The position numbers were made by a program, and so were the translations under genes. Below are positions 11,659-36,003 of a stretch of 64,000 nucleotides of DNA, piece after piece. This DNA comes from an uncultured beta proteobacterium (lineage in GTDB: Bacteria > Pseudomonadota > Gammaproteobacteria > Burkholderiales > Burkholderiaceae). The stretch is taken from NCBI GenBank assembly GCA_903867305.1, contig CAIPQU010000045.1, forward strand, positions 62,001 through 126,000, given 5' to 3'. Every line of letters starts with the position of its first letter. The first letter of the stretch is position 1. The notes under the pieces are model-generated. The model was not told the DNA's origin. It was given only the letters and a program-made list of their open reading frames with translations, and did no database searches.

Positions 11659-11672
11659 AGACGGGCTCATTT

Positions 11673-12800: not shown

Positions 12801-12811
12801 GGAAAACTAGA

Positions 12812-19678: not shown

Positions 19679-20887
19679 TTAACCAATAATTTTTTGGGAA
19701 AATAACCGATCAATACTCGCTTGATCCAAATACTCACTCAACACCTCTTGCGTATGCTCACCTAAACGAGGTGGTGGATATCTTACCGAAGTCGGTGTAT
19801 CTTTCATCTTAAGTGGCGTACCTAAGCCTTTTAACTCGCCGATCGATGGATGCAGATTTTTAACAATCATATTACGTGCCCTTGTATGTTCATTACCAAG
19901 CGCTTCCGCAACGGTATTTACAGGCCCAACCGGAATACCATTTTTGCGAAGTAAAGGAATTAAATCCGTTGATGGCATTTTTTTCAATTCTGCGGCAACC
20001 ATTCCATCCACTTCAACACGATTCGCAATTCTGGCTGTATTTGTTCGATATTTTTCATCCTGCGCCCATTCAGGATGCCCTAAGATCTCTGCTAATTTAG
20101 CAAACTGACCATCATTACCAACCGCCAATGCGATCAATTTGTCCTTCGCATGAAAAGTTGTGTATGGAACAATCGTAGGGTGTCCATTACCAAATCGTCT
20201 CGCTTCTTTTCCGGTGGCTAAATGACTTGCTCCAACGTTGGCAAGTAAAGCAATCGAACTATCGTATAAAGCCACTTCAACATGCTGCCCTCGACCAGTT
20301 CGATATCTCGCCAGAAGAGCTCCTTGAATGGCATTGGTGGCCATCATACCAGTAGCAAGATCAACAATCGCAACACCATATTTACTTGGAACACCTTCTT
20401 CTTCACCACAAATACTCATGAGACCAGATTCTGCTTGCAAAATAAAATCATAACCCGGCAAATGAGAGAGTGGTCCATCTAAGCCGTATCCAGTGATCGA
20501 GCAGCGTACAACTAAAGGAGCATTTTTTTCAAACCAAAGGTCGTCAAAACCCCATTTTTCTAAAGTGCCATTCTTGAAGTTTTCCAGCACCACATCAAAT
20601 TTTGGAATCAGTGTGGCAAGCAACTGCTTACCCTCAGGCTTAGAGAAGTCAATCGCAATCCCTCTCTTATTTCGGTTACAACCCAAGAAATAAGAAGACT
20701 CCCCTTCTAAAAATGGAGGTCCCCATCCACGAGTATCATCACCCGCCTTAGGAGACTCTACCTTAACAACCTCGGCGCCCATATCTCCCAACAACATGCC
20801 ACACCAAGGCCCCGCAAGAATACGGCTCAAATCAAGGACCTTAAATCCAGTTAAGGCCCCTTGCAATGCTTGATTCACTTCAAACAT
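19679..20887 (-). CDS. CaiB/BaiF family (class III) CoA transferase
   Basis: A 402-residue class III CoA transferase. The N-terminal GFKVLDLSRILAGPWCGMLLGDMGAEVVKVE region is diagnostic, and the catalytic Asp sits in VAIVDLATGMMA near residue 165. These enzymes move CoA from one acid to another via aspartyl thioester intermediates. The open frame extends to 20953, but ATG 20887 lies one base after the stop of the upstream enoyl-CoA hydratase and gives a standard start, so I chose it. With the hydratase and the 3-hydroxyacyl-CoA dehydrogenase it probably activates and degrades an organic acid as its CoA ester. Confidence 0.88.
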   Translation of the reverse strand: MFEVNQALQGALTGFKVLDLSRILAGPWCGMLLGDMGAEVVKVESPKAGDDTRGWGPPFLEGESSYFLGCNRNKRGIAIDFSKPEGKQLLATLIPKFDVVLENFKNGTLEKWGFDDLWFEKNAPLVVRCSITGYGLDGPLSHLPGYDFILQAESGLMSICGEEEGVPSKYGVAIVDLATGMMATNAIQGALLARYRTGRGQHVEVALYDSSIALLANVGASHLATGKEARRFGNGHPTIVPYTTFHAKDKLIALAVGNDGQFAKLAEILGHPEWAQDEKYRTNTARIANRVEVDGMVAAELKKMPSTDLIPLLRKNGIPVGPVNTVAEALGNEHTRARNMIVKNLHPSIGELKGLGTPLKMKDTPTSVRYPPPRLGEHTQEVLSEYLDQASIDRLFSQKIIG

Positions 20888-20888
20888 C

Positions 20889-21761
20889 TTAGATATCGCG
20901 CATGTCTGGAGCAGCATTGAGGTTCTTATGGAAACCATCCATATAATCCGCAAGTGCTTCTTTGTTTCTTAAGCGGAATTTCTGGAAGTCTGGTTTACGT
21001 CCCTCGAGGAATGCATTCATACCCTCTAAACTTTCTTCAGATCCCCAAACGTAAGCCAACAACTCCATACCATGCTGCCAAGATGCATACAGTTGATCAG
21101 ATTCAAAGTTCAAGCTCTTCTTCGTCATACGAATCGTTTGTGAGCTATTGCTCTTAATGTTTTCACACCAAGCAAGAGTTTCTTCCATGAGCTTTTCTTC
21201 AGGTACACACTTATTAATTAAACCAATTTTCTCAGCCTCTTTAGCATCAAATCGCTTTGCTAAGAAAATCATTTCGCGAGCAATACGCTCACCAACAATT
21301 CTCGGCAAATACTGAGTAGCGCCAACCGTTGGACAAGCGCCTACTTTTGCACCAGTTTGACCCAACATGGATTTCTCTGAAGCAATAACTAGGTCACACC
21401 ACAAAGCTAATTCGTGACCGCCACCCATACACCAACCATTCACCATGGCAATTGCAGGAATCGGAACACCGCGGATCGCCATTGCTAACCCTAACATACG
21501 ATCATTCCACATCGAAGCGTTAGTAAACGTTAAACGCTTCATTGCATAAAAATCTCCACCAGCAGAGAATGCTTTGTCGCCCGCGCCTTTAAATACGATA
21601 CAAGCAATGGATGGGTCTTCGCGAGTAGATTTCACCGCATCAATCATCTCATCTAAGGTTTGCTCTCTAAAAGCATTCATTACCCGTGGACGATTAATCG
21701 TAATCCAAGCTACTTGCTCTTTAACTTCAAAAATAATGTCTTTATATTTTTTTTGTTCCAT
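20889..21761 (-). CDS. Enoyl-CoA hydratase/isomerase family protein, MenB/BadI-like
   Basis: A 290-residue crotonase-fold protein. Family marks are NRPRVMNAFREQTLDEM, the oxyanion-hole segments FSAGGDF and GWCMGGGHELALWCD, and LGQTGAKVGACPTVGATQYLPR. The last phrase resembles the equivalent segment of dihydroxynaphthoyl-CoA synthase (MenB) and 2-ketocyclohexanecarboxyl-CoA hydrolase (BadI) more than simple enoyl hydratases. A ring-opening or Claisen-type reaction on a cyclic acyl-CoA is therefore a possible role (inference). It is coupled to the downstream CoA transferase and lies 87 bp below the 3-hydroxyacyl-CoA dehydrogenase gene. Confidence 0.82.
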   Translation of the reverse strand: MEQKKYKDIIFEVKEQVAWITINRPRVMNAFREQTLDEMIDAVKSTREDPSIACIVFKGAGDKAFSAGGDFYAMKRLTFTNASMWNDRMLGLAMAIRGVPIPAIAMVNGWCMGGGHELALWCDLVIASEKSMLGQTGAKVGACPTVGATQYLPRIVGERIAREMIFLAKRFDAKEAEKIGLINKCVPEEKLMEETLAWCENIKSNSSQTIRMTKKSLNFESDQLYASWQHGMELLAYVWGSEESLEGMNAFLEGRKPDFQKFRLRNKEALADYMDGFHKNLNAAPDMRDI

Positions 21762-21848
21762 GACTGCTCCATTTAAATTAATTAAAAACTACTACAAATC
21801 CTGAAATATATTAACTGAGAAATGATTATTTGTATTAACAATTCAAAT

Positions 21849-22769
21849 TTAATCTGGTTCTACCTGTAAAACATCGAATGCCGCCTTTAATCTAGCATTG
21901 TATTTACGGCGCATTTCTTTCATCTCTTCATCACTCCAAGTCCGAAAGCCCTCTTTGGATTTCATACCATATTTACCCTGGTCAATTAAGTTGGCAATTA
22001 CTGGCTGTAAACCATCGACGTTATACAAAGAAGGCCAAATTTCTACCGAGGCACCGGCCATTCCCTCCCAACCACTAATTTCTTTTTGGGTCATCGGCCC
22101 AACCGCAGCATAGCGAAATCCAAAACTATATCGCACTGCAGTATCCACATCGTCAGGGGATGCAATACCCGCATCAACCAATGACAAGGCTTCTCTCATT
22201 AAGGCATGCTGAATCCGGTTAGCTAAAAATCCAGGTATATCTTTTTTTACTAAAACCGGTTTTTTACCGGCATCTCGGTACATCTGACAAACCGCCTCGC
22301 CCATGACGGGGTCTGATTTTTCACCTAAAACGACTTCTACCAAAGGAACTATATGGGCTGGCATAAAGTAGTGGGCATTAAACATGCGATAGGCAGTATC
22401 TAGATTCACTGCAATTTTTGAAATCGGGAAGCCAGAGCTGTTACTGCCGATCGGAATATGTTTAGGCACTCGCAGATCTAACTGAGCAAATAAAATTTGC
22501 TTAAGGCCCATGTCCTCTTTAATCGTCTCAAGGACCCAAATGACATCTGACCAATCGTCCCAATCATTAATAGCGCCAAACACTAATGGGTTTTGCTCCT
22601 GAGTCCACCGAGGGTTCAAACCTAAGGTGAGTTGTTCAATTTCTGTTTGCTGATCCTGCGCACGCTCTTTGCTTCTTCCCAAAAGAATCACTGTGTGTGC
22701 GGTGGCTAAAAATCCTGCTGCAATACCTACTGCCATGATTCCTGTGCCAAGAATGACTATTTTTTTCAT
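21849..22769 (-). CDS. 3-hydroxyacyl-CoA dehydrogenase family protein
   Basis: A 306-residue NAD-dependent dehydrogenase. The Rossmann motif VILGTGIMAVGIAAGF is at the N terminus. The substrate-side motif FNAHYFMPAHIVPLVEVV and the C-terminal domain GFLANRIQHALMREALSLVDAG follow. The open frame continues to 22880, but ATG 22769 starts right at the Rossmann strand and has a GGAGAG ribosome site, so I chose it. It is the first gene of a minus-strand transcript with the enoyl-CoA hydratase and CoA transferase, and is divergent from the SMP-30 gene over a promoter with two palindromes. Confidence 0.85.
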   Translation of the reverse strand: MKKIVILGTGIMAVGIAAGFLATAHTVILLGRSKERAQDQQTEIEQLTLGLNPRWTQEQNPLVFGAINDWDDWSDVIWVLETIKEDMGLKQILFAQLDLRVPKHIPIGSNSSGFPISKIAVNLDTAYRMFNAHYFMPAHIVPLVEVVLGEKSDPVMGEAVCQMYRDAGKKPVLVKKDIPGFLANRIQHALMREALSLVDAGIASPDDVDTAVRYSFGFRYAAVGPMTQKEISGWEGMAGASVEIWPSLYNVDGLQPVIANLIDQGKYGMKSKEGFRTWSDEEMKEMRRKYNARLKAAFDVLQVEPD

Positions 22770-22787
22770 GCGCTCTCCACTGATTAC

Positions 22788-22803
22788 ACTTGTTGTGACA
22801 AGT
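22788..22803. promoter_or_regulatory. Palindrome 1 in the divergent promoter (GntR-like operator candidate)
   Basis: ACTTGT and ACAAGT form a perfect inverted repeat with a TGTG spacer. The core GTTGTGAC is nearly identical to that of palindrome 2, 40 bp away centre to centre. The TNGT...ACNA shape resembles GntR-family operators, but no regulator gene is adjacent. Confidence 0.6.
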
Positions 22804-22827
22804 ATTTTGGGTATACTTCTTCTAGTA

Positions 22828-22843
22828 AATGGTTCTGACCATT
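22828..22843. promoter_or_regulatory. Palindrome 2 in the divergent promoter (GntR-like operator candidate)
   Basis: AATGGT and ACCATT form a perfect inverted repeat with a TCTG spacer. It shares GTTSTGAC with palindrome 1. Both lie between the 3-hydroxyacyl-CoA dehydrogenase start (22769) and the SMP-30 start (22933), so one factor could control both transcripts. Confidence 0.6.
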
Positions 22844-22932
22844 GTAAACAATAAAAATTAGAGACAATCTTTATCAGCACTGAATCACTATCATTTTTTA
22901 TAACCTATCTGTAACAGTAAGGAGCTTTCTTC

Positions 22933-23856
22933 GTGTTTAATCCATTTCAACAAGTTGAACTTATCAAAGCTGAGCCGTTTATGTCGATGCCAGCAAAATT
23001 TCGTCAAAAAAAACGCTCCGCCTGGGCTGATCCTAATCGCCAAGGAGCAGAAATTGAATGCTTCCTTGAAGGCCCTTCATTTGATCGGGAAGGAAATTTA
23101 TGGTTTGTAGATATTCCATATGGTCGAATTTTTAGAATCTCAACAAAAGGCGAGTGGGAACTGATTACGCAATACGATGGGTGGCCAAATGGTTTGAAGT
23201 TCCATAAAGATGGTCGAGCATTTATTTGTGACTACAAAATGGGCCTATTGAGTTTAGATACTAAAACTGGAAAAATAGAAACCATCCTTGGATCGATGTA
23301 TAGCGAATCCTTCAAGGGTCTCAATGACCTTCACTTTGCAGCGAATGGTGATTTATATTTTACGGACCAAGGCCAAACAGGTATTGCAGATCCTACCGGA
23401 AGAGTCTTCCGTCTGCGTGCGAATGGTCAACTTGATCGCTTAGCACTAAATGTTCCAAGTCCAAACGGAATTACTCTTTCAACCACCGATAAACACTGCT
23501 ATGTCGCCGTTACAAGATCTCAGCAAATTTGGCGCTTGCCCATCATGGCCGATGGTTCTGTATCTAAGACTGGTGTTGCGATCCAATTGTCTGGTGGCGC
23601 CGCAGGACCTGATGGCATAGAAATGGATAGTGAAAATGGTCTGCTCGTATGTCATTTAGGAGTTGGCGTCTGGCGTTTTGATAGCAATATGCTTCCAACC
23701 CATTTAATTTACTCAGAAAATAAACATCACCATCACCTTGCGAATATCTGTACTGGGGGAGACGGACGGGATTTGTATATTACTGAATCGATGTCAGGTG
23801 ATATTCTCAAAGCACGCTTGCCCGTTGCTGGTAAAAAAATGTTTGGCCTGAGCTAA
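22933..23856 (+). CDS. SMP-30/gluconolactonase-like protein
   Basis: A 307-residue six-bladed beta-propeller lactonase-like protein. Visible family features are FLEGPSFDREGNLWFVD (metal-ligand Glu near residue 43), LNDLHFAANGDLYFTDQGQ, and SPNGITLS with the conserved Asn, followed by GPDGIEMD. Enzymes of this group hydrolyse sugar-acid or other lactones using a divalent metal. Translation starts at GTG 22933, supported by AAGGAG at 22919-22924. It opens the seven-gene plus-strand operon, so a lactone is probably the first intermediate of that pathway. Confidence 0.85.
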   Translation: MFNPFQQVELIKAEPFMSMPAKFRQKKRSAWADPNRQGAEIECFLEGPSFDREGNLWFVDIPYGRIFRISTKGEWELITQYDGWPNGLKFHKDGRAFICDYKMGLLSLDTKTGKIETILGSMYSESFKGLNDLHFAANGDLYFTDQGQTGIADPTGRVFRLRANGQLDRLALNVPSPNGITLSTTDKHCYVAVTRSQQIWRLPIMADGSVSKTGVAIQLSGGAAGPDGIEMDSENGLLVCHLGVGVWRFDSNMLPTHLIYSENKHHHHLANICTGGDGRDLYITESMSGDILKARLPVAGKKMFGLS

Positions 23857-23905
23857 AACCACCAAAATAATATTTAACAAATTCATTCTTCGTAGGATAA
23901 AAATT

Positions 23906-25042
23906 ATGTCCATTATCAAGTCAGTACATGTTGCAAATGTTAGTGTTCCACTCGACGTCGTTACTTCTTTCTCTACCAGAACCGTTTCTGAACGTCACTA
24001 TTGTTTAGTCAAAGTGACGAATACCGATGGTGTTCAGGGTATTGGTTTTTGTTATGTGGGTAGTAAAGCTGGTGAAATTGCAAAAGTAGCGGTAGAGCAA
24101 TTATTAGCGCCGAAACTCATTGGTCAAGAAAGTCATCGTAGTGAAGGTCTTTGGCAAGATATGTATTCCGAATCCATTTTGCAGGGCCGCTCAGGCTCAG
24201 TAATGCGTGGTATTTCTATTTTAGATACGGCAATTTGGGATTTGAATGCTCGTTCCGTGAATTTACCTCTGCATAAATATCTTGGCGCCGTCGTCTTGGA
24301 CCGAGTTCCAGCCTATGCGAGTGGTGGTTACTATGTTGAAGGTAAAACCCCTGCTCTACTCGCAAAAGAAATGGAATCCTATGTGGCAATGGGTTTCAAA
24401 GCGATCAAAATGAAGACGGGGCGTCTTTCTCCACGCGAGGAAGAAGAACGTTTAGCTGCTGTTCGTGATGCGGTTGGGGATGATATTTTGGTGACGATGG
24501 ATGCGAATAATGCTTGGCGTGATTTACCAACAGCAATGGAATACATCCAACGCTTTGAGCAATACAACCCATATTGGATTGAAGAGCCTTTTTCACCGGA
24601 TGCAATCGACTTACATGCACGCTTAGCCAGCCGAACGTCCATCACGGTTGCGACGGGTGAAATTGAAGTCGGCCGTTGGCGTCATCGTGAACTCGTCGAA
24701 GCTGGTGGTTGTGAGATTTTGCAATCCGATGCTGCGGTTTGTGGAGGTATTAGTGAATGGCGACGGATTGCTGCTTTTGCTGATTCAAAAGGAGTAACGG
24801 TTAGCCCACACTGGTTCCATGATTTGCATGCACCGCTCGTTGCCGCAACACCAAACGCACGTTTTGTGGAATTCTTTACCGATGATCAAGTACTTAACTT
24901 CCGGCGCTTAATTGATAAACAACTTAGCTTTGATAAAGGTGATTTGATTCTGCACCAAGAACCTGGTCTTGGATTTAATTTCGATGAAGCTGCTGTTCAG
25001 AAATATGGCACTGGATCCCAGACATGGTCACAAATTATATAA
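23906..25042 (+). CDS. Enolase-superfamily acid dehydratase (mandelate racemase type)
   Basis: A 378-residue enolase-superfamily enzyme. The active site follows the mandelate racemase pattern: Lys168/Lys170 (KMK), Asp199 (MDAN), Glu226 (IEEP), Glu252 (GEIE) and His302 (SPHWFHDLH). A Lys plus His pair with three acidic metal ligands is typical of acid-sugar dehydratases and mandelate racemases. The upstream lactonase and downstream dehydrogenase suggest dehydration of a hydroxy acid released from a lactone. It overlaps the next gene by 19 bp. Confidence 0.87.
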   Translation: MSIIKSVHVANVSVPLDVVTSFSTRTVSERHYCLVKVTNTDGVQGIGFCYVGSKAGEIAKVAVEQLLAPKLIGQESHRSEGLWQDMYSESILQGRSGSVMRGISILDTAIWDLNARSVNLPLHKYLGAVVLDRVPAYASGGYYVEGKTPALLAKEMESYVAMGFKAIKMKTGRLSPREEEERLAAVRDAVGDDILVTMDANNAWRDLPTAMEYIQRFEQYNPYWIEEPFSPDAIDLHARLASRTSITVATGEIEVGRWRHRELVEAGGCEILQSDAAVCGGISEWRRIAAFADSKGVTVSPHWFHDLHAPLVAATPNARFVEFFTDDQVLNFRRLIDKQLSFDKGDLILHQEPGLGFNFDEAAVQKYGTGSQTWSQII

Positions 25043-26079
25043 GTGCAGAAAGAGTTCGTACTTTCATTACTGATGTATTCAGTGGTCTAGGTATGCCAAA
25101 AGAAGACGCTATACTTTGCGCCGATTTAATGGTGAGAACCGACCTCTCGGGAGGCGATGGGCATGGTGTCTTTCGACTCTTGCAATATGCTCGCAGAATC
25201 CAAGTGGGAGGAATTAATCTTCACCCTCAAATGAAGTTGCTACAAGACGCTCCGTCCATAGGCCTATTACATGGCGATAATGCGATGGGACATTTGGTGA
25301 TGCAGCGCTGTGCAGAGCTTGCTATTGAAAAAGCAAAAGCTACAGGGATTGGTTGGATGGGCTGTTGCTATGGCAATCATGCTGGTGCAGGTTCGACCTA
25401 TGCAGGATTAGTCGCTGAAGCTGGCTTGGTAGGTATCTATTTGGCAGTCGGTAGCGCTAACCATATGGCACCATGGGGTGGGATTGATCCTTTACTGTCG
25501 ACTAATCCAATCGCTATTTCAGTACCGATGGGAGGAAATCAACCACCTGTACTGCTCGATATGGCGACAACCGTTGCGGCTTACGGTAAAGTCAAAATGA
25601 AAGCTCAAGCAGGTGAATCGATGCCTGAAGGATGGATGATTGATCAGAAAGGTCAAGCTTTAACAGACCCCAAAAGATCTGCAGAGGGAACTTTATTGCC
25701 AATTGGTGACTATAAGGGTTACGGACTCTCTTTGATGATTGCTCTGCTTGCAGGAAGTATGAATGGCGCTGCTGTAGGCTCTGAATTAATTGATTTTAAT
25801 GCTGATGAAAAAGCAGTGACCAATACTGGGCAAACCATCGTTGCCATCAATCCTGCTTTTTTAGGAGGTACGGAAAACTTATTAAGATCATCAGGTAAGT
25901 TAGTGGAAGAAATTAGAAACTCCCAAAAACTACCTGGCGTTTCTGAAATTCGAGTTCCCGGAGATGGCGCGGCGAAAGCAAAAGAAAAGAGAAATCGTGA
26001 CGGGATTCCGATTTCGCCAGGATTACTCAATAATCTCAATCTGTGTGCGAAAATGGCTGGGATTGCTCCTATTCAATAA
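25024..26079 (+). CDS. Ldh family malate/L-lactate-type oxidoreductase
   Basis: A 351-residue protein of the type-2 malate/lactate dehydrogenase (Ldh/YlbC) family. The N-terminal DLSGGDGHGVFRL matches the family's DxxGxxSHGVxRL with the catalytic His. GNHAGAGSTYA, STNPIAISVPMG and GDYKGYGLSLMI are further family motifs. These NAD(P)-dependent enzymes oxidise or reduce 2-oxo/2-hydroxy acids. It starts inside the dehydratase gene, so the two are translationally coupled. Its product is likely a 2-oxo or 2-hydroxy acid passed to the aconitase-type steps. Confidence 0.85.
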   Translation: MVTNYISAERVRTFITDVFSGLGMPKEDAILCADLMVRTDLSGGDGHGVFRLLQYARRIQVGGINLHPQMKLLQDAPSIGLLHGDNAMGHLVMQRCAELAIEKAKATGIGWMGCCYGNHAGAGSTYAGLVAEAGLVGIYLAVGSANHMAPWGGIDPLLSTNPIAISVPMGGNQPPVLLDMATTVAAYGKVKMKAQAGESMPEGWMIDQKGQALTDPKRSAEGTLLPIGDYKGYGLSLMIALLAGSMNGAAVGSELIDFNADEKAVTNTGQTIVAINPAFLGGTENLLRSSGKLVEEIRNSQKLPGVSEIRVPGDGAAKAKEKRNRDGIPISPGLLNNLNLCAKMAGIAPIQ

Positions 26080-26089
26080 ACTATTCGCT

Positions 26090-27070
26090 ATGACAACTAT
26101 GCTTCGTTTGATCCGTGTAAGTCTTTGTGGCTTACTCTTCATCTTCGGGGCTAGTTTTGCACAATCAAATAATGATTTTCCGAATAAACCCATACGCGTC
26201 ATCATTGGATTTTCTGCTGGAGGTGGGTCGGATACTTCAGCACGTCTTATCGCTCCCAAATTTGGGGAGTATATAGGGCAAACTATCATTATTGAAAATA
26301 AGCCTGGCGCAGGTGGTAACTTAGCTAGTGAGTATTTGACGAAAGTACCCGCTGATGGTTACACTATTTCGTTAGCAACGATAGGCTCATTGGCAATTAA
26401 TCCGAATATGCCTGAAGGGACTAGTTTTGACCCACTCAAAGACTTCACGATGATTACTCAAGGAGTGACTTTTTCAAATGTTTTAGTCGTGCGTGCCGAC
26501 TCCCCCATTAAAAATCTAAAAGATTTTGTAAACTCTGGTAAAGATAGCAAAACTTTTGTGACGTTTGGATCTTCAGGTAATGGAAGTACTGGACACCTTG
26601 CTGGTGAGTTACTCAAAATAAGATCAGGTATGAATGCGCAACATATTAATTACAAAGGTGGTGGGCCTGCCATGAATGACCTTTTGGGTGGAAATATTAC
26701 CGCTATTTTTGCTAGTACACCTACTGCTATTCCTTTTATTGAGGCTGGTAAATTAAGGGCGATTGGGGTGACTGGAGTAAAGCGGGCCGCTGCTTTACCC
26801 AATGTTCAAACAATTGCTGAACAAGGTTACCCAGGTTATCAAGCTGAAAATTGGTATGCCTTTATCGGGCCTGCAAAAATACCTCCTGATATTGTGAACA
26901 AATTGAATACTGCACTATCGAAAGCAATGCGTGATCCAGAAACGTTGAATCGTCTGCATCAAGTTGGCGTTGAGGGTTCACCATCGAGTCCAAGCGAGTT
27001 ATATAGCCATGTAAAGTCAGAACTCGACTCTTGGGGAAAAGTCATCAAAAAAATACAGTGGGATAAATAA
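26090..27070 (+). CDS. Bug-family tripartite tricarboxylate transporter binding protein
   Basis: A 326-residue secreted binding protein of the Bug/TctC type, common in Burkholderiales. The signal peptide has a hydrophobic core (LCGLLFIFGASFA), followed by a mature start with FPNKPIRVIIGFSAGGGSDTSAR. GNLASEYLTKVPADGYT and INYKGGGPAMNDLLGG are family motifs. The open frame extends to 25964, but the ATG at 26090 gives a proper signal peptide. No tctA/tctB membrane genes are adjacent, which is usual for Bug proteins. It probably captures the organic acid that the operon degrades. The next gene starts on the last base of its stop. Confidence 0.87.
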   Translation: MTTMLRLIRVSLCGLLFIFGASFAQSNNDFPNKPIRVIIGFSAGGGSDTSARLIAPKFGEYIGQTIIIENKPGAGGNLASEYLTKVPADGYTISLATIGSLAINPNMPEGTSFDPLKDFTMITQGVTFSNVLVVRADSPIKNLKDFVNSGKDSKTFVTFGSSGNGSTGHLAGELLKIRSGMNAQHINYKGGGPAMNDLLGGNITAIFASTPTAIPFIEAGKLRAIGVTGVKRAAALPNVQTIAEQGYPGYQAENWYAFIGPAKIPPDIVNKLNTALSKAMRDPETLNRLHQVGVEGSPSSPSELYSHVKSELDSWGKVIKKIQWDK

Positions 27071-28350
27071 TGGGTCAAACAATCAGCGAAAAAATTCTCG
27101 CTAAGCATGCACATCAATCCGAAGTAAAAGCTGGCGAAGTTGTTGTCTGTGATGTTGACTTTGCGATGGTCACCGATACAAGAGCAGCAAATACCATCAA
27201 GATGATGAGTAAATTAGATCGTGATCGTCTGAAGTTTACAAAAAATACGGCGCTCGTTTTAGATCACTACTCCCCCCCTCCTCATCCAGAAGCTGCTGAA
27301 ATCCATCAACAGATGCGCCGCTTTTCGAATGAAGCTAATACGCATTTATACGATATTGGCGATGGTATCTGCCATCAAGTATTACCAGAAGGTGGTCACC
27401 TCACGAGTGGTGATTTAGTCGTTGGAACGGATACCCACTCTGTGACATATGGTGCTTTCAATGCCTTTGGAACAGGAATTGAAGGTAGTGATGTTGCCGC
27501 AGTGATGGCAACCGGTAAGTTATGGTTTCGGGTACCAGAATCGATTCAAATTCATTTAAATGGACAGCTTCAGCCAGGTGTTTGGGCGAAAGATATTACT
27601 TTATATATGCTGGGTAAATTTAAAGCCGAGGGGCTTAACTACAAGGCTATTGAGTATGTAGGCTCAGCAGTTAGCAAAATGGAGATCGATGATCGTATGA
27701 CGCTGTGCAATCACGCGGCAGAACTTGGTGCTAAAGCAGCTCTTCTAGAAGCTGATCAAAAAACATTTACTTGGCTTGCCGCCCACGGCGCTAAAACTCC
27801 AGAAGCCATCTACGCTGATAGTGATGCGATATATTCCTTCAAAGATCAAATCGATGTATCCTTACTTGTGCCTCAAGTCGCCAGAAAACATGAGGTAGAC
27901 GATGTTGTCGGAACCGATCAAATCGACCGACAAGCAATTCAATTTGCTTTAATCGGAACCTGTACGAATGGTCGTCTCGATGATATTCGACAAGCAGCAC
28001 ATATTCTGCAAGGTAAGAAAATCGCTAAAGGTGTAAGGATGATTGTGACTCCTGCATCTCGTCAAATTTACCTGGCCGCCTTGCGGGAAGGATTAATCGA
28101 AATATTGACTTCTGCAGGCGCTTCTTTCGAAGCAGCCGGCTGCGGTACTTGTGTTGGAATAACAAACCATCTCGTTCCCGGCAACCAAGAAACTGTCATC
28201 TCAAGTGCGAACCGCAACTTTAAGGGACGATTATCCAATGATGAAGCTGATATTTGGCTAGGCTCTGCAGCCACGGTTGCTGCGTCAGCTCTTACTGGAT
28301 TTATTACAGATCCTCGAACCGTGGATGGTGGTCTATGGAGAAACGTATGA
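27070..28350 (+). CDS. Aconitase/isopropylmalate isomerase family, large subunit
   Basis: A 426-residue [4Fe-4S] hydro-lyase large subunit of the compact LeuC/HacA type. Cluster cysteines lie in IGTCTNGRL and in AAGCGTCVG. GDLVVGTDTHSVTYGAFNAFGTGIEGSD and the VTPASRQIY segment are also family-typical. The small subunit follows immediately. The context (no leuB or leuA nearby, but an isocitrate-lyase-type gene directly downstream) argues against leucine synthesis and for hydration or isomerisation of an alkylmaleate or similar acid. Dimethylmaleate hydratase is a known two-subunit member of this family. The assignment to that reaction is inference. Confidence 0.85.
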   Translation: MGQTISEKILAKHAHQSEVKAGEVVVCDVDFAMVTDTRAANTIKMMSKLDRDRLKFTKNTALVLDHYSPPPHPEAAEIHQQMRRFSNEANTHLYDIGDGICHQVLPEGGHLTSGDLVVGTDTHSVTYGAFNAFGTGIEGSDVAAVMATGKLWFRVPESIQIHLNGQLQPGVWAKDITLYMLGKFKAEGLNYKAIEYVGSAVSKMEIDDRMTLCNHAAELGAKAALLEADQKTFTWLAAHGAKTPEAIYADSDAIYSFKDQIDVSLLVPQVARKHEVDDVVGTDQIDRQAIQFALIGTCTNGRLDDIRQAAHILQGKKIAKGVRMIVTPASRQIYLAALREGLIEILTSAGASFEAAGCGTCVGITNHLVPGNQETVISSANRNFKGRLSNDEADIWLGSAATVAASALTGFITDPRTVDGGLWRNV

Positions 28351-28859
28351 ACTCAAACTTGATTACTGGAAAAGTTTTTAAATTAGGGTCTGACGTCAAT
28401 ACCGATATTCATTGTTCGAGTAAGTATCTCCCTGGAAAAGATAGTGCCTTTGTAAGTACGGTTGCCTTTGAGAAATTACAAGCTGGTTTTGCTAAAAATA
28501 TCATCGATCAACAAGGTGGAATTATTGTTGCAGGTGAAGATTTTGGTATTAATTCCTCAAGAGAGCAAGCCGTTCATATTTTGCATTTAATGCAAGTGAA
28601 ATGTATTGTCGCTCCATCCTTTGGACGTCAGTTTTTTCGAAATGCGATTAATAATGGCTTACCAATTATTGAGTGCGATACCTCAAACATACTTGCCAAT
28701 GAAGAACTTAGTATTGATCTCCATTTAGGTACAGTCAGTTCAAGTTCAGGGTTAAAACTCTCCGTAACGCCGTTGCCACAAGAGATTTTAAAAATCATCG
28801 AAGTCGGTGGATTGTTAAACTTCATTACCCAACATCCAGACTGGAACTTTGCAACATGA
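28347..28859 (+). CDS. Aconitase/isopropylmalate isomerase family, small subunit
   Basis: A 170-residue swivel-domain subunit that completes the hydro-lyase with the preceding gene. Typical motifs are GKVFKLGSDVNTDIH near the N terminus, AGEDFGINSSREQAVHIL and SFGRQFFRNAINNGLP. The frame is open from 28254, but ATG 28347 overlaps the large-subunit stop as ATGA and has GGAG at 28337-28340, so I chose it. The length matches the archaeal-type LeuD. Its stop overlaps the next start, so large subunit, small subunit and lyase are translationally linked. Confidence 0.88.
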   Translation: MNSNLITGKVFKLGSDVNTDIHCSSKYLPGKDSAFVSTVAFEKLQAGFAKNIIDQQGGIIVAGEDFGINSSREQAVHILHLMQVKCIVAPSFGRQFFRNAINNGLPIIECDTSNILANEELSIDLHLGTVSSSSGLKLSVTPLPQEILKIIEVGGLLNFITQHPDWNFAT

Positions 28860-29746
28860 AGCTCTCTCCCGGCGATAAAAGAAAGCAATTAAAGAAACTT
28901 ATCCTCGCAAAAGATACGGTCATTGCTCCAGGTATTTATGATGCTTATGGCGCCAAGCTCGTTGAGAATGCAGGTTTTCTGGCAGTTTATTTAACGGGTA
29001 ATGGGGTTTCCGCTTCATTATTAGGTCATCCTGATATTGGACAAGTGGACTTAACGCTCATCACTGATCATGCGCGTCGAATCGCTGCTAGTATTTCTCT
29101 TCCCCTGATTTGTGATGCTGATACTGGTTATGGAGGAGTTTTTAATATTCAACGAGCGGTTCAAGAATTTGAAGCTGCTGGTGTAAGTGCAATTCATTTG
29201 GAAGACCAACAATTTCCAAAACGTTGCGCCCAGTTTGAAGGGGCAAGAAGCGTCTTAGACTTTAGTGAAGCTGTAAACCATATTAAAGCTGCAGTCATGA
29301 GTCGCACGGATCAGGACTTCATGATCATCGCACGTACAGACTGTGCTGCTAGTCTTGGTATTGATGAAGCTATTCGTCGCGCAAAAGCATTTGTAGCAGA
29401 AGGGGCTGACGCTGTTTTTGTTGAATTAAAATCAAGTCCCGAGGCTTTAGATCATATCAAGAAAGTGAAAGACCTTGTAGGTTCGACTTGTTTATTCAAT
29501 GTTGATGTTGGGGGGCCTGTTTCCAATCTGAAAGCCCATCAGATGAAATCCCATGGCATTGATATTGCGATTCACCCAAGCTTAGGGCGTGCTATTTTTG
29601 GTTATGCGATGCAAGAAGCCCTCACTCAACTGAAGTCATCCGGCAATTTAGAGCCGCTTCGAGCAAAGATGTTCTCGAGTCAGGCTTATAACCAAGCCCT
29701 GGGACTCGATGCTTTTGAGGCTTGGGAAAAACAATTTAACAGCTAG
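28856..29746 (+). CDS. Isocitrate lyase/PEP mutase superfamily lyase (2,3-dimethylmalate or methylisocitrate lyase-like)
   Basis: A 296-residue TIM-barrel lyase. The metal-binding region LICDADTGYGG and the HLEDQQFPKRC segment are diagnostic; Cys of the KRC motif is present, but the usual following GH of isocitrate/methylisocitrate lyase reads AQ. IARTDCAASLGIDEAIRRAKAF and the VGGPVSNLK end are also family-like. Members cleave isocitrate, 2-methylisocitrate or 2,3-dimethylmalate, or act as PEP mutases. Coupling to an aconitase-type pair suggests a hydration/cleavage sequence. It ends only 3 bp from the convergent dxs gene. Confidence 0.82.
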   Translation: MKLSPGDKRKQLKKLILAKDTVIAPGIYDAYGAKLVENAGFLAVYLTGNGVSASLLGHPDIGQVDLTLITDHARRIAASISLPLICDADTGYGGVFNIQRAVQEFEAAGVSAIHLEDQQFPKRCAQFEGARSVLDFSEAVNHIKAAVMSRTDQDFMIIARTDCAASLGIDEAIRRAKAFVAEGADAVFVELKSSPEALDHIKKVKDLVGSTCLFNVDVGGPVSNLKAHQMKSHGIDIAIHPSLGRAIFGYAMQEALTQLKSSGNLEPLRAKMFSSQAYNQALGLDAFEAWEKQFNS

Positions 29747-29749
29747 AGT

Positions 29750-31636
29750 TCAAGCAAAAAAACGTTTCGTAATCGACTGTTCAATTCCCGCCTGATCAAG
29801 ACCACACTGCGCCAAGAGTAAGACTGAATCACCATGATCAATGAACTGATCAGGCAAGCCCAACTGCAGAAACTGCATAGATGTTCCGATGCTCGCTAAA
29901 TATTCCATACAGGCACTCCCAGCTCCACCCTGTATCACGCCCTCTTCAAGTGTCACTATTCCGGAATGGTTTTGTGCTATTTGTGCAAGTAGCTCTTCGT
30001 CTAAGGGTTTAACAAAACGCATATCAACAATCGTCAAATCGAGATTTTCAGCAACCGCTAATGCTGGTTGTAATAGAGTTCCGAAGGCAAGAATAGCAAC
30101 TCGATTTTCTAAAGGTCTAGAAGAAAGCCTTCTGACTAGCGCTTTACCCATTGGCAAGGGCTCCAAGCTCTTGGTTGTTTCCACTCCAGTTCCACTGCCT
30201 CTTGGATATCTCACCGCACTTGGGTGACCAGAGAAGTGCGCCGTTGAGAGTAATTGACGACATTCATTTTCGTCACTTGGCGTCATGATGAGCATATTGG
30301 GTATGCAGCGTAAATAAGGTATATCGAATATACCAGCATGCGTTGCGCCATCAGCACCAACAAGTCCAGCTCGATCTAGTGCCAAAGTCATCGGCAAGTC
30401 TTGTAATGCAACATCATGGATTAACTGGTCATAGCCACGTTGTAAAAATGTGGAATAAATCGCGAGGACCGGTCTTAGTCCTTCACAAGCAAGTCCTGCA
30501 GCAAATGTCACCGCGTGTTGTTCAGCAATACCAACATCATAGTAACGTTTTGGGAATCTTTTCTCAAATTCAACGAGGCCAGATCCTTCACGCATGGCAG
30601 GAGTAATACCTACCAACTTTTCATCATGCTCAGCCATGTCACACAACCACTCACCGAATACTTGTGTAAAGGTTTTTTTAGCAGGTATTTTACTGGGCAA
30701 AATACCAACTTTGGGGTCAAATTTACCTGGACCATGGTATTTGATAGGATCTTCTTCAGCGAGAGCGTATCCCTTACCTTTTTTCGTGACCACATGAATA
30801 AACTGAGGGCCATCTCCCTCAAGGGAGAGACGTTTGATATTCTGAAAAGTTGGTATTAATGAGTCGAGATCATGACCATCAATCGGGCCAATATAATTAA
30901 ATCCAAACTCTTCAAAAATTGTCGCTGGAACAATCATCCCTTTTGCTTGAGCTTCTAGACGTTTAGCAAACTCTCTAAGAGGGGGAACAATTGATAAAAC
31001 ATTACCCACACTATTTTTAGTTGCCTCATACAAAGGACTACTAATCAGGCGAGCCAAATAACGATTGAGCGCTCCAACGGCTGGAGAAATCGACATATCG
31101 TTATCATTCAAAATCACAATCAGTGGCAAATTGCGCGTGACACCAGCATGATTCATCGCTTCAAAAGCCATGCCACCAGTCATCGCACTATCACCAATGA
31201 CCGCTACGGCAACCCGTTTTTCATCCTTCAATAAAGCGGCATGCGCCATACCTGTTGCCGCAGAAATACTAGTAGATGAATGCGCTGTTCCAAACGCATC
31301 GTATTCGCTTTCTGAGCGTTTAGGAAATCCAGATATTCCACCAGATTGTCGAAGTCCCGACATTTGCTCACGACGACCAGTTAATATTTTATGTGGATAG
31401 CTTTGGTGACCAACATCCCAAACAACCTTATCGTCAGGTGTATTAAATACATAATGAATGGCAATGGCCAATTCCACAGTACCTAAATTAGAGGATAAAT
31501 GTCCTCCTGTTTTAGAAACAGAGTCAACCACATATTGTCTTAATTCAACAGCCAGTTGGTTCAGTTGAAACTTCGATAAATCCCTGAGTTCATTCGGCGA
31601 CTCGATGGTTTGTAATAAGTTGGTCATTTTTAACAT
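29750..31636 (-). CDS. dxs: 1-deoxy-D-xylulose-5-phosphate synthase
   Basis: A 628-residue thiamine-diphosphate enzyme making 1-deoxy-D-xylulose 5-phosphate from pyruvate and glyceraldehyde 3-phosphate, the first step of the MEP isoprenoid pathway. Marks are [35 protein letters not shown], the TPP motif [15 protein letters not shown]...LNDNDMS, and the transketolase-type [15 protein letters not shown]. The frame is open to 31690, but ATG 31636, two bases after the hemA stop and with AAAGG upstream, gives the normal DXS start. It ends the bchG-to-dxs operon and feeds carotenoid and bacteriochlorophyll side-chain synthesis. Confidence 0.94.
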
Positions 31637-31638
31637 AA

Positions 31639-32952
31639 TCAGCCTTTGCGTCCAGTGGTCATAAACATTTTTGATACGATTTTCTGACACTCATCAATAC
31701 TAAATTCTTCAACATGATTTAAAGTATGCAAAGAACCATGTAAGAATTTGTTCGAAAGTGCCCTTGCAAGCTCCGCCATTACATCTAAAGGATCATCTCC
31801 TCGCTGAATTTTCCTCTTAGCTTTTTCTAATTCAATTTGCTGGAAATCTTCACTACGTTGCTTCAAACTAGTAATTAAGGGTACTGATGCACGTTGATGT
31901 AACCATTGCATAAAGTTTTTTACTTGTGTATCAATAATCTCTTCAGCACTCTTGACTGCACTCGTTCTATACTCCATACCCTCTTTAACAACATCTCCTA
32001 AATCATCTACAGTATATAAATAGACATCACCCAACTTGGCAATTTCAGGTTCAATATCTCTAGGTACTGCAAGGTCAATCATCACCATCGGTGATGAACG
32101 TCTTTTTTTCAATGCTGTGTTAACCATGCCCAAGCCAATAATCGGTAATGAGCTAGCTGTGCATGAAACCACAATATCAAACTGCGATAACATAGCAGGC
32201 ACTTCAGACAATGGAATTGAATCACAGTGATAACCTTGATCGCTGATATATTTTGCTAAACCCTCACCACGCTCAATGGTCCGATTTGCAATCGTAATAG
32301 AACGAGGTTTTTTACCTAAAAAATAAACAGCGCAAAGATGAATCATTTCACCAGCACCAATAAATAAAACTCTCTGCTGACTTATATCACCTAAGACTCT
32401 GGTTGATAAACGAACAGCAGCACTAGCCATTGATACAGCATGAGTGCTAATTTCGGTGTTTGTTCTAACCTCTTTTGCCACCGCAAATGTTTTATTAAAT
32501 AAATGATTTAAATAGGTTCCCATAGAACCAGCTTGCTGAGCAGTTTGAACCGCTTGTTTCATTTGCCCTAAAATTTGTGTCTCACCTAGGACCATCGAAT
32601 CAAGGCCACAACCAACTCGGAAGACATGCCGAACTGCGTCAGATGCTATCGTAGTTTGAACAAAATCTGAAATTTCATTTTTTGATATTTTTTGTTGGAC
32701 AGATAACCAATCAATCGTTTTCTCTTGTAAATTAGTCGCAGACAGTATGTGATCGTTCGCAGCACAATAAATTTCAGTTCGATTACATGTGGATAAGATG
32801 GCGACCTCAGATTCACTTTGGGTATCAACTCGATTTAAATATTGCCTTAAATCCAGTAGTGCGTCGGATAAGTTATCCGGACCAAAAGCAACTTTTTCCC
32901 TGACATCCACAGGGGCGCTTTGATGATTAATACCGATACTTAAAAGATTCAC
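31639..32952 (-). CDS. hemA: Glutamyl-tRNA reductase
   Basis: A 437-residue NADPH-dependent enzyme that reduces glutamyl-tRNA to glutamate-1-semialdehyde, the first step of C5 tetrapyrrole synthesis. The catalytic Cys56 is in [10 protein letters not shown], the substrate region has [27 protein letters not shown] is present, and the nucleotide motif GAGEMIHL lies near residue 197. A C-terminal dimerisation region follows. Its presence in the pigment operon ties precursor supply to bacteriochlorophyll demand. It is directly downstream of tspO (12 bp) and upstream of dxs. Confidence 0.95.
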
Positions 32953-32964
32953 ACGATTTCCAAT

Positions 32965-33453
32965 CTATTTAAACGGACCATTCAGACGAATAGTTTCATA
33001 ATTCAATGCAATGGCACAAGTGACCCAAATTAAATATGGCGACATCAATAAACATGCTTGCTTGCTCCACTTAAAACAAGAAATCATAATGGCTAAAACC
33101 GATATCCATAAAAAGAGGGCTTCAATCAATGACCAATCTGGGCGATGCCATCTGAAATACAACACACTCCAAAACAAATTTAATAATCCATTGAGTAAAA
33201 ACAAAATAGCCAGTGTGGTCTTTTGTTGCTTCGAATTGCAGGCTCGCCAAGTAAGGCTCCAACAAAATCCTGCGCAAACAAAGATCGTAGTCCAGATAAT
33301 GCCAAAAGCCCAATCAGGTGGCTTCCAATCAGGTTGCTTTAGGGTTAAATACCATGGCCCAATATCCGTCAACAATCCACCAAAAAAGGAGACCGTAAAA
33401 ATCCAAACGCCTGCGGCTAAGATATAAGGTTGTCGATATAGAGGAAAACTCAT
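32965..33453 (-). CDS. tspO: TspO/MBR family tryptophan-rich sensory protein
   Basis: A 162-residue membrane protein with five predicted transmembrane segments and many Trp residues. Family motifs include WYLTLKQPDWKPPDWAFGIIWT near residue 33, LLNLFWSVLYFRWHRPDWSLIEAL, and the C-terminal SPYLIWVTCAIALNYETIRLN. TspO proteins bind porphyrins and, in Rhodobacter, affect oxygen control of pigment genes. Here the start overlaps the bchP stop (ATGA). Placement between bchP and hemA supports a pigment-related role. A role in sensing is inference. Confidence 0.9.
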   Translation of the reverse strand: MSFPLYRQPYILAAGVWIFTVSFFGGLLTDIGPWYLTLKQPDWKPPDWAFGIIWTTIFVCAGFCWSLTWRACNSKQQKTTLAILFLLNGLLNLFWSVLYFRWHRPDWSLIEALFLWISVLAIMISCFKWSKQACLLMSPYLIWVTCAIALNYETIRLNGPFK

Positions 33454-34655
33454 GAGGTTTTAGCGATCCCTAATAAATGTCCCATATCTTTAATAAAAAT
33501 CTTGATATGTGCCAATGGCTTCTTACGGACAAGTTTTTTATTCATGTAGGATTCAAAGGTTAAACGCTGCACATCCTTATCTTCACACATTTTAACGAAG
33601 CTCTCACGACGCTTTTCTGTGGTGTACCAAAAGTACTGCATGACCCCTAATACAATAAATGGTAAACGATGTTCTTTCATAAATCTTTTTCGCGCTAGTT
33701 GTAACTTACTCGCTTGATTGGTTGCCAAGTACTCTCCAACTGCTTCAGCTGCGAGTTGACCGCCTAACATAGCGTAATATATTCCTTCGCCTGAAGCGGG
33801 GGCAACAACACCAGCAGCATCTCCAGCTAAAACAACGTTCTTACCGTTATCCCAACGCTTCAAAGGTTTCATTGGCAAAGGCGCACCCTCATGACGAATT
33901 AATTCAGCATCTGCAAGTCCAATATCTGCACGTAACTTGCCAACAGCATTACGTAATGAAAATCCCTTATCAGCACTGCCAGTTCCAATACTTAAAGTAT
34001 CTCCATGTGGAAATACCCAACCATAGAAATCCGGGGAAATATCTTTTTGATATAAGACATCACACCGTGAACCATCGTAGTCATTACCAGTACTCTGAGG
34101 TTTACGAATAATTTCGTGATAAGCAAATACGTAATTCGCTTCAGAGCAACCAGGCACACCAGCAGCTCTTCCAACACCAGACTTTGCGCCATCGGCTCCG
34201 ACGACGGCTTTTGCATAGACATCCGACTGAACACCATCTCCAATGTCGCCTTTACCACGAACTCGATAAGTGATTTTAATGAGATCGCCTTCTTCTTTAA
34301 GAGTCGTAAAATTACCAACCCTTCTAATCGCACCATGTTTTTTTGCACGTTCACGGAGCCATTCATCAAATTCGCCACGATCGACCATTCCAACAAAACC
34401 GTTTTCAATTGGAATATCTACTTTTTTATTTTTTGGTGAGACCATTCTTGCGGAAGTTGCTTTAGCCACTAAAAGATTATCGGGAATTTGATAGTCTTTA
34501 ATCAGTCGAGGTGGAATTGCGCCACCACATGGCTTGATTCGACCATCACGATCTAACAATAAAACATGTTTTCCTTGTTTTGCCAAGGTCTCTGCTGCTG
34601 TTGCACCAGCAGGCCCACCACCTACTACGACCACATCAAAAATTTCTCGCTCCAT
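33450..34655 (-). CDS. bchP: Geranylgeranyl reductase of bacteriochlorophyll synthesis
   Basis: A 401-residue flavoprotein reducing the geranylgeranyl tail to phytyl. The N-terminal dinucleotide motif VVGGGPAGATAAETL, RDGRIKPCGGAIPPRL, and the second FAD motif VVLAGDAAGVVAPASGEGIYYAMLGG are characteristic of ChlP/BchP. The frame is open to 34697, within the upstream gene, but the twin ATG at 34658/34655 follows AAGGAG, the second at the better spacing. It overlaps the PucC-like gene's end as an open frame only. It acts at the inner membrane on bacteriochlorophyll made by BchG, encoded two genes upstream. Confidence 0.95.
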   Translation of the reverse strand: MEREIFDVVVVGGGPAGATAAETLAKQGKHVLLLDRDGRIKPCGGAIPPRLIKDYQIPDNLLVAKATSARMVSPKNKKVDIPIENGFVGMVDRGEFDEWLRERAKKHGAIRRVGNFTTLKEEGDLIKITYRVRGKGDIGDGVQSDVYAKAVVGADGAKSGVGRAAGVPGCSEANYVFAYHEIIRKPQSTGNDYDGSRCDVLYQKDISPDFYGWVFPHGDTLSIGTGSADKGFSLRNAVGKLRADIGLADAELIRHEGAPLPMKPLKRWDNGKNVVLAGDAAGVVAPASGEGIYYAMLGGQLAAEAVGEYLATNQASKLQLARKRFMKEHRLPFIVLGVMQYFWYTTEKRRESFVKMCEDKDVQRLTFESYMNKKLVRKKPLAHIKIFIKDMGHLLGIAKTS

Positions 34656-34674
34656 CATGATCTCCTTAAGTCTT

Positions 34675-36003
34675 TTATCGTTGAATGCGTGTTGCAAATC
34701 TTGCAGATACTACAAATAACAAAGCCTCTATGGCAAATACCGAAGAATACGCAATTGCTGTATCAGTGATGAACCATCTTGCTGCATCACTCGCAACTGC
34801 GCCCAATAATCCACCTAAACCAAATGCAATAGCTTGTGCACCACCCCATAAACCAATGCGCACACCTTCCTTACCTAATCCATCAGCAACTGCTAGTCGC
34901 ATCATTGAACCAATTGCTGCAATCGAAAATGCTCCATTAGAAACTCCCAATAAAAATACATTTAAGTTGAGTGGCCATCCAGGTCCGACTAGACCACCTA
35001 CACTTAATCCAGCCATAGTAATAGCGGACGCAAGGCATCCATAAACAATCCAAGAATTTAATGACCCAAAGTATTTTCTTAAAAAACTACTACCACACAG
35101 TGCGACTAACAACATACCAATCAAAACACCTGAATGTTGCAGGCCAGATAAGCTCGTAGTTTGACCAACCGAATATTGAAAGACAATGCCAGCAAATGGC
35201 TCAAGAATTAAATCTTGTGAGCTAAAGGCCAGCATAGAAATAAAGATAAATTTTGTAAAATGCCGAATGTCATTATCTTTCCACATATCCAATAAAACTT
35301 GCTTGAAAGGAATGTTTTGTTTTGGAGCTTCTACGATATTTTTAGCGTATTGACTTGCCTGTTCTTCTATGCGGTATAAAGCAGTAATTGTGATCAATAT
35401 CGCTACCATCGATACAACACAAGCAATAGTGATGACCTTCAATGGTGTATACGGGTCAATGAATTTACCTATCATGACACTGGTCATAGCAAATCCAAAT
35501 ATCATCATCAACCAGACAATGGTTGCTGCAGCGGCACGTCTTTGATCATTCACACTTTTTGCGAGTAAGGCTAAAAGTGAAGTACCACTTGTACTCACTC
35601 CAACCCCAATCATGAGAAATGCCAGAAATGAAACAATCAGCCCCAATGTGAGATGAGACCCCATCAGAGCAGTACCAAGCGATGCAGTAGCTCCGCCAAT
35701 ACCTAAAATAGTCATACCACCGATAATCCAAGGTGTTTTAGTTTTTCCTTGGTCAGAGATCAATCCCATTTTTGGTCGTATCACTTGAACCAAATAATGA
35801 ATCGCTACTAATAATCCAGGGATCAAGGCTGGCAAACTTAACTCAACCACCATAATTCGATTCAGCGTTGATGTTGTCATCACAACCACTGAGCCTATAC
35901 AAGTTTGTACTAAACCCAAGCGCACAATCCCTAACCATCCTAAAGATTGATCATTTAACTGATCTTGTTCTATAGGCGTAGTTGAGGTATTTGTTGTTAA
36001 CAT
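34675..36003 (-). CDS. PucC/BCH2-family major facilitator protein
   Basis: A 442-residue membrane protein with about 12 hydrophobic segments, of the PucC/LhaA/BCH2 family. Its N-terminal LGWLGIVRLGLVQTCIGSVVVMTTSTLNRIMVVEL and RPKMGLISDQGKTKTPWI segments match the family. Its location between bchG and bchP is that of the BCH2-type gene (ORF428 in Rhodobacter). Members are thought to handle bacteriochlorophyll during assembly of light-harvesting complexes. It starts 3 bp after the bchG stop. It is a paralogue of lhaA at 42085. Function is by family only. Confidence 0.85.
   Translation of the reverse strand: MLTTNTSTTPIEQDQLNDQSLGWLGIVRLGLVQTCIGSVVVMTTSTLNRIMVVELSLPALIPGLLVAIHYLVQVIRPKMGLISDQGKTKTPWIIGGMTILGIGGATASLGTALMGSHLTLGLIVSFLAFLMIGVGVSTSGTSLLALLAKSVNDQRRAAAATIVWLMMIFGFAMTSVMIGKFIDPYTPLKVITIACVVSMVAILITITALYRIEEQASQYAKNIVEAPKQNIPFKQVLLDMWKDNDIRHFTKFIFISMLAFSSQDLILEPFAGIVFQYSVGQTTSLSGLQHSGVLIGMLLVALCGSSFLRKYFGSLNSWIVYGCLASAITMAGLSVGGLVGPGWPLNLNVFLLGVSNGAFSIAAIGSMMRLAVADGLGKEGVRIGLWGGAQAIAFGLGGLLGAVASDAARWFITDTAIAYSSVFAIEALLFVVSARFATRIQR

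Follow-up and report, generated by a model that had tools for sequence, protein, structure and literature searches.

A LeuCD-type hydro-lyase pair joined to a separate subfamily of isocitrate lyase/PEP mutase-type enzymes in Burkholderiaceae

The stretch of DNA analyzed here, referred to as the window, comprises 64,000 nucleotides (positions 62,001 to 126,000) of contig CAIPQU010000045.1 from the genome of an uncultured beta proteobacterium of the Burkholderiaceae (GCA_903867305.1). It contains a unit of three plus-strand genes encoding a LeuC-type hydro-lyase large subunit of 426 amino acids (27070..28350; Pfam Aconitase), a LeuD-type small subunit (28347..28859; Pfam Aconitase_C), and a 296-amino-acid lyase of the isocitrate lyase/phosphoenolpyruvate (PEP) mutase (ICL/PEPM) superfamily with a KRCAQ loop (28856..29746; Pfam PEP_mutase/ICL). 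The preliminary description of this DNA had reported that the three genes are joined by 4-bp overlaps, and the DNA agrees: the LeuC stop codon and the LeuD ATG share an ATGA at 28347, as do the LeuD stop codon and the lyase ATG at 28856. An alternative in-frame ATG for LeuD at 28335 would result in a 16-bp overlap with LeuC. The TctC/Bug solute-binding protein said to lie directly upstream of LeuC is also present (26090..27070, plus strand, starting at either 26090 or 26099; Pfam TctC, 247 bits), and its end overlaps the LeuC ATG by 1 bp.

These genes belong to a longer plus-strand run, from SGL to the lyase, in which neighboring genes overlap or are separated by gaps of no more than 49 bp. 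The run opens with an SMP-30/gluconolactonase-like protein (SGL; 22933..23856; Pfam SGL, 111 bits) and continues with an acid-sugar dehydratase-like protein of the enolase superfamily, mandelate racemase type (MR1; 23906..25042; Pfam MR_MLE N and C), and an Ldh2-type dehydrogenase of the malate/L-lactate dehydrogenase family (25024..26079; Pfam Ldh_2, 351 bits), which is likely in the same operon as Bug-LeuC-LeuD-lyase. Five window genes look like genes under purifying selection, since their codons are 42 to 52% identical to those of a related locus (L036) at third positions versus 82 to 96% at first and second positions. At the protein level, SGL shares 98% identity with its counterparts in both L036 and L037; in L036, only 51% of its third codon positions match, which indicates unusually strong purifying selection. 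Promoter-like sites within 22700 to 30200 were no more common than in shuffled sequences (14 versus a mean of 14.5) and were not used; terminator-like sites in the same interval numbered 10 versus 7.2.

The subfamily profiles that it matches and its Fe-S cysteines place the window pair in the LeuCD/HacAB branch of the aconitase superfamily. LeuC scores above three NCBIfam subfamily cut-offs (NF001614, 490 versus 385; TIGR01343, 454 versus 386; TIGR02086, 440 versus 410) and matches no LeuC, HacA, or aconitase equivalog in that scan; the scores for the leucine synthesis equivalogs fall below their cut-offs (LEU2, 378 versus 611; leuC, 210 versus 560; leuD, 41 versus 116 and 108 versus 246). LeuD is above the cut-off of the “LeuD/DmdB family” model TIGR02087 (124 versus 109). 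Cys298, Cys358, and Cys361 of LeuC, which all 30 clade rows share, occupy the positions of the Fe-S cluster ligands in this family (PMC8184944). The solved large subunits nearest to LeuC are archaeal isopropylmalate/citramalate isomerases. LeuD carries the signatures TDIHCSSKYLPGK and FGINSSREQA, the latter in all 32 LeuD clade rows and in none of the 13 other rows. In this clade, a LeuD loop reads YLPG (KYLPGK in the window; YNMG or similar in family f13), compared with YLRT in methanogen homoaconitase (YLRTT in 2pkp) and YLVY in the isopropylmalate enzyme. This small-subunit loop and its Arg play a role in homoaconitase, and the window LeuD lacks the Arg of the YLRT loop that would mark it as HacAB. 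Judged by its residues, the loop would suit small uncharged substituents better than a third carboxylate.

The same genome encodes separate leucine and methylcitrate enzymes. Its leuC, leuD, and leuB lie on another contig (C79; 63, 58, and 55% identical to the E. coli proteins), and its PrpB, on contig C12, is 75% identical to E. coli PrpB and groups with it at 100/100, whereas the window lyase is 30% identical to E. coli PrpB, scores below the PrpB equivalog cut-off, lacks KRCGH, and does not group with PrpB. A tblastn search of the window with E. coli LeuA, LeuB, and PrpC gave nothing at E 1e-5. Thus, the earlier statements that no leuA, leuB, or prpC lies nearby and that the unit serves neither leucine synthesis nor the methylcitrate cycle hold up, and both of those readings are rejected on the basis of the own-genome paralogues and the trees. 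With isopropylmalate isomerase, the window pair shares its subunit architecture and Fe-S cysteines, although LeuC falls below the LeuC equivalogs. With the PrpD/AcnB/PrpB enzymes of the methylcitrate cycle, the unit shares PrpB-type catalytic residues and, where MmgE/PrpD is a partner, the logic of dehydration, hydration, and cleavage, but here PrpB is a separate gene and the window has no PrpC.

The window lyase has the fold, Mg ligands, and catalytic Cys loop of the ICL/PEPM superfamily. Its structure model (predicted local distance difference test score, 88) has a template modeling score of about 0.86 to the best solved match, methylisocitrate lyase 3eoo (35 to 36% identity), a Foldseek result that confirmed the superfamily only. 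In the tree, the enzyme lies in a separate clade of 25 rows (support, 100/99) that excludes PrpB, fungal dimethylmalate lyase, oxaloacetate hydrolase, carboxyphosphoenolpyruvate (CPEP) mutase, and petal death protein, and its profile scores are below the corresponding cut-offs (PrpB, 222 versus 354; CPEP mutase, 194 versus 420; PEP mutase, 110 versus 320; ICL, 49 versus 276). Petal death protein, oxaloacetate hydrolase, and CPEP mutase share the superfamily and the Mg site with the window lyase but are only 33 to 35% identical to it, occupy separate branches, and keep both CGH and (T/S)P. A 3-residue insertion after E190, together with the lack of (T/S)P after GG, is found in 25 of 25 clade rows and in 0 of 24 other rows; (T/S)P is present in those 24 rows and in four PDB references.

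The preliminary description had singled out a lyase that keeps KRC and has lost the following GH. This is true of the window enzyme (K122-R123-C124-A125-Q126), but it does not define the system: CAQ replaces CGH in 15 of the 25 clade lyases (the window genus and family f18), the other 10 (f46 and f13) keep CGH, and all have LeuCD partners. The loss of GH was therefore rejected as a hallmark. Residues Y45, T47 (Ser in PrpB), G48, D60, D87, D89, E116, R160, and C124 are kept; their PrpB counterparts bind Mg and the oxo acid, as described in PMC11982470, where the residues that set PrpB/ICL selectivity are treated as an open question. The altered motifs are grouped away from these residues and may reflect a change in one half of the substrate, with the oxo-acid half resembling that of PrpB.

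The association of the lyase with LeuCD is conserved among relatives. A lyase search of 200 related genomes matched 19, including the own genome, and gave 19 places outside it. LeuC and LeuD homologues were found on the fetched piece for 16 of 16 lyases with 49 to 77% identity, 12 of which are in the window genus (from 11 genomes). For the three lyases with 40 to 42% identity, LeuC and LeuD were missing from the fetched piece in all cases; two of these pieces are short on at least one side, one beginning just 0.5 kb from the lyase and the other being an 8.8-kb contig. When 399 genomes of the order were searched for LeuC, 20 matched, including the own genome; of the 19 others, 4 were already known and 15 were new, and 6 of the new contigs (L060, L075, L080, L081, L083, and L085) end too early to judge. 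The lyase accompanies LeuC in 12 of the 13 judgeable loci (4 known and 8 new; the exception is L082). In 10 of the 12 loci from the window genus, a Bug orthologue (62 to 80%) immediately precedes LeuC, and the lyase and LeuD trees both recover the window genus and f13 as groups. A phylum-wide LeuC search at E 1e-120 returned only the own genome among the 398 in the drawn sample; the close clade was thus seen, in that sample, only within the order. LeuC matches in phage records and plasmid matches at approximately 40% identity were rejected as lying outside the close clade. Gene calls in the G+C-rich relatives are mechanical.

The genes around this core vary among the 31 fetched pieces that were surveyed for partners. 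The arrangement SGL-GntR-MR1-Ldh2 is found on 4 of them (L036, L037, L039, and L040), where a GntR/UTRA regulator sits between SGL and MR1; the regulator is missing from the 49-bp gap at 23856 to 23906, and the rest of the window yielded no homologue of it either. MR1 has galactonate and talarate/galactarate dehydratases as its best solved matches and carries KMK at 168, a D/E/E region, and SPHW at 300, motifs that we take to be catalytic. MmgE/PrpD genes of two types occur on 11 pieces from five families: type A proteins, 61 to 100% alike, on seven (f1, f18, and f46) and type B proteins, at 63% or more, on four (f6 and f13). PdxA-like genes (53% or more) are on 9 pieces and alpha/beta hydrolases on 5, while four f46 loci have an isopropylmalate dehydrogenase-like gene (at least 80% identity to the L048 gene) and xanthine dehydrogenase-type subunits lie near the core in f13. 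In L047 (13134 to 15823), from the window genus, a two-subunit molybdenum hydroxylase (a 2Fe-2S subunit and a molybdenum cofactor subunit) and an isopropylmalate dehydrogenase-like gene lie near the LeuCD-lyase unit.

Taken together, these observations point to a catabolic operon in which an imported small carboxylic acid is hydrated or isomerized by LeuCD and then cleaved by the lyase, a reading to which we assign a probability of roughly 0.6. It is based on gene order, family membership, kept catalytic residues, and co-occurrence, from which we infer the order of reactions, the products, and the class of substrate (a C4 diacid that bears a small uncharged group). The front-end enzymes would deliver an alkene or hydroxy diacid to the core; in the window these would be the lactonase, the enolase-superfamily dehydratase, and Ldh2, and in other lineages MmgE/PrpD, PdxA-like, or isopropylmalate dehydrogenase-like enzymes. 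LeuC-LeuD, as a [4Fe-4S] hydro-lyase, would hydrate a substituted maleate or shift the hydroxyl of a substituted malate via that alkene. The lyase would then catalyze an Mg-dependent retro-Claisen cleavage between the hydroxyl carbon and the adjacent carbon, yielding a 2-oxo acid similar to pyruvate or glyoxylate, along with a small carboxylate that is not succinate.

Several observations weigh against this proposal. L082 (f6) has LeuCD without a lyase in the 13 kb downstream that was examined, and in f46 and f13 other genes (2 to 7 kb) separate LeuCD from the lyase. Because f46 and f13 lyases keep GH, the argument from the pocket fits the members unequally. The window also lacks the MmgE/PrpD and PdxA partners of other lineages; the best own-genome matches to these reach no more than 31% identity for type A, 54% for type B, and 37% for PdxA, and none is on the window's contig. 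We would read the window-type and MmgE/PdxA front ends, which thus differ, as alternatives to each other. The front-end genes may also be independent neighbors.

The unit is real, conserved, and misnamed, and its logic is like that of DmdAB-Dml, the hydratase-lyase pair discussed below. Its three genes would be wrongly annotated as leucine and propionate enzymes, and correct naming would change metabolic models. We found no published description of the LeuCD-lyase unit in the open-access papers searched, a set that most subscription papers lay outside. It is tentatively suggested, at somewhat less than even odds, that several Burkholderiales families share an undescribed catabolic route, in which a fixed core of LeuCD and this lyase subfamily carries out the last part of the degradation of diacids that are branched or carry hydroxyl groups. 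Front ends that can replace one another (lactonase, enolase-superfamily dehydratase, and Ldh2; MmgE/PrpD, PdxA, and hydrolase; or one linked to a molybdenum hydroxylase) would make these diacids, each from its own starting acid, and the substrate would be new for DmdAB-Dml, Prp, and Leu enzymes. With two enzymes and a binding protein, the unit is a concrete target for assays.

A rival reading is a citramalate/3-methylmalate route. LeuCD would then convert citramalate, citraconate, and 3-methylmalate into one another, after which cleavage by the lyase would produce either glyoxylate plus propionate or pyruvate plus acetate. The archaeal isomerases nearest to LeuC are consistent with this route, and so are the recurring hydroxy-acid dehydrogenases that would fit glyoxylate-like products (Ldh2 in the window, a 2-hydroxyacid dehydrogenase [2HADH] in f13, and a flavin mononucleotide [FMN]-dependent dehydrogenase in f46) and a class I fumarase-like gene that adjoins the unit in L041, with a same-sized open reading frame (ORF) at that position in L042. 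Members of the class I fumarase family are known to hydrate mesaconate (PMC4682846). However, such dehydrogenases have many possible substrates, and the lactonase and MR1 are left unexplained, which makes the route rather unlikely.

The presence of MmgE/PrpD on 11 of the 31 pieces and a lyase fold nearest to methylisocitrate lyase would be expected if the unit handled another alkylcitrate or tricarboxylate in the manner of the methylcitrate cycle, where MmgE/PrpD would dehydrate, LeuCD would hydrate, and the window lyase would replace PrpB. We consider this quite unlikely: the genome has PrpB, LeuD is without the homoaconitase-type Arg, the lyase has lost TP and, in the window, also GH, and no synthase gene lies nearby (PrpC being unmatched in the window).

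In the nicotinate pathway of Eubacterium barkeri, dimethylmaleate hydratase (DmdAB) is followed by 2,3-dimethylmalate lyase (Dml), and the preliminary description had proposed a dimethylmalate-like route outside nicotinate degradation. What is supported, as a working logic, is the coupling of hydration or isomerization to C-C cleavage: in both systems a two-subunit hydro-lyase of the aconitase family precedes an ICL/PEPM lyase. Dimethylmalate as the substrate is not supported. In the lyase phylogeny that had been proposed, the window enzyme clusters with neither PrpB nor the solved fungal dimethylmalate lyase (3fa3), the E. barkeri proteins standing outside the comparison, so that 3fa3 was the sole characterized reference for this activity. 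This fungal enzyme groups with oxaloacetate hydrolase 3lye at 100/100 and keeps KRCGH and the later TP, whereas the window lyase has CAQ, no TP, and an extra insertion. No nicotinate pathway gene was seen adjoining the window unit, nor does a mutase or methylitaconate isomerase adjoin it, and the two PrpF homologues of the genome are on another contig. A true DmdAB-Dml pair, converting dimethylmaleate via 2,3-dimethylmalate to pyruvate and propionate, is thus very unlikely, even though the two enzyme families and their order match, LeuD passes the “LeuD/DmdB family” cut-off and has an uncharged loop, and the oxo-acid site of the lyase is close to that of PrpB, a pyruvate producer (PMC11982470).

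A chance or loose neighborhood, in which a duplicated LeuCD and a promiscuous lyase play unrelated roles, would account for L082, for the nonadjacent lyases of f46 and f13, and for the tendency of Bug-rich regions to shuffle genes; it is highly improbable given the co-occurrence in 16 of 16 and 12 of 13 loci, the translational overlaps in the window, and the recovery of the genus and f13 in both the lyase and LeuD trees. PEP mutase and LeuCD homologues, the latter as phosphonomethylmalate dehydratase, co-occur in the pantaphos (hvr) cluster (PMC7858074), but the chance that the window unit makes a phosphonate is close to negligible: the presence of a solute-binding protein and of enzymes for sugar acids suggests that a compound is imported and degraded, and this reading was rejected on the PEP mutase profile score (110 versus 320 bits) and the lyase loop LEDQQFPKRCAQ (EDQxFPKRCAQ, unlike the EDKxxxxxNS of PEP mutase).

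LeuC-LeuD-type pairs with a nearby ICL/PEPM lyase, and sometimes a Bug protein, are also found on plasmids. The three genes are neighbors in Roseomonas marmotae, R. haemaphysalidis, Pseudoroseomonas cervicalis, and Ancylobacter, one gene separates LeuD from the lyase in Burkholderia plantarii, and three genes separate LeuCD from the lyase in Paraburkholderia. Unlike the window enzyme, these lyases keep CGH and fall into three other groups (the placement of Ancylobacter is unsure due to a long branch), and their accessory genes encode hydantoinase, iron-containing alcohol dehydrogenase, and FAD oxidoreductase. The association thus recurs with four separate lyase groups, which suggests a widespread way of breaking substituted diacids. 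On the Paraburkholderia plasmid (L092) the unit is accompanied by genes for hydantoinase A/B and a RutB-like protein, and on that of B. plantarii (L102) by an FAD oxidoreductase and, further off, an isochorismatase-family gene; these sets are possible imide-to-maleate routes. The own genome has a second ICL/PEPM lyase on contig C117 (8000 to 22103; L055), 35% identical to the window lyase, that is surrounded by several Bug genes and MmgE/PrpD and groups with the Roseomonas lyases having LeuCD neighbors. LeuCD pairs without such a lyase lie beside CoA-transferase and hydroxymethylglutaryl-CoA lyase-like genes in Haloferax and Peribacillus and beside TcuA- and PrpF-like genes in Hydrogenophaga, and they also occur in Deinococcus (in a lysine cluster) and Skermanella; LeuCD of such breadth therefore serves several pathways.

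Divergent from the SGL run, on the minus strand (19679..22880), are genes for a CaiB-type CoA-transferase, an enoyl-CoA hydratase, and a 3-hydroxyacyl-CoA dehydrogenase-like protein, the first two named by eye from ORFs; the profile scan of the trio covered the dehydrogenase alone. The trio is also beside SGL in L036, L037, and L039, and the L040 piece ends inside the dehydrogenase. Because this position is conserved, we would guess that these genes use the released acid. On the opposite strand directly after the lyase (29750 to 36003), ORFs named by eye as Dxs-, HemA-, TspO-, BchP-, and PucC-like adjoin the unit, which thus looks like it borders a photosynthesis gene cluster; in L040, the 20-kb piece that carries the unit likewise has a Dxs homologue (70%). 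Farther upstream (9626 to 13819), a same-strand run of DctP-like, 3-hydroxyisobutyrate dehydrogenase-like, enolase-superfamily, and Gfo/Idh/MocA-like ORFs, likewise named by eye, is possibly another sugar-acid unit.

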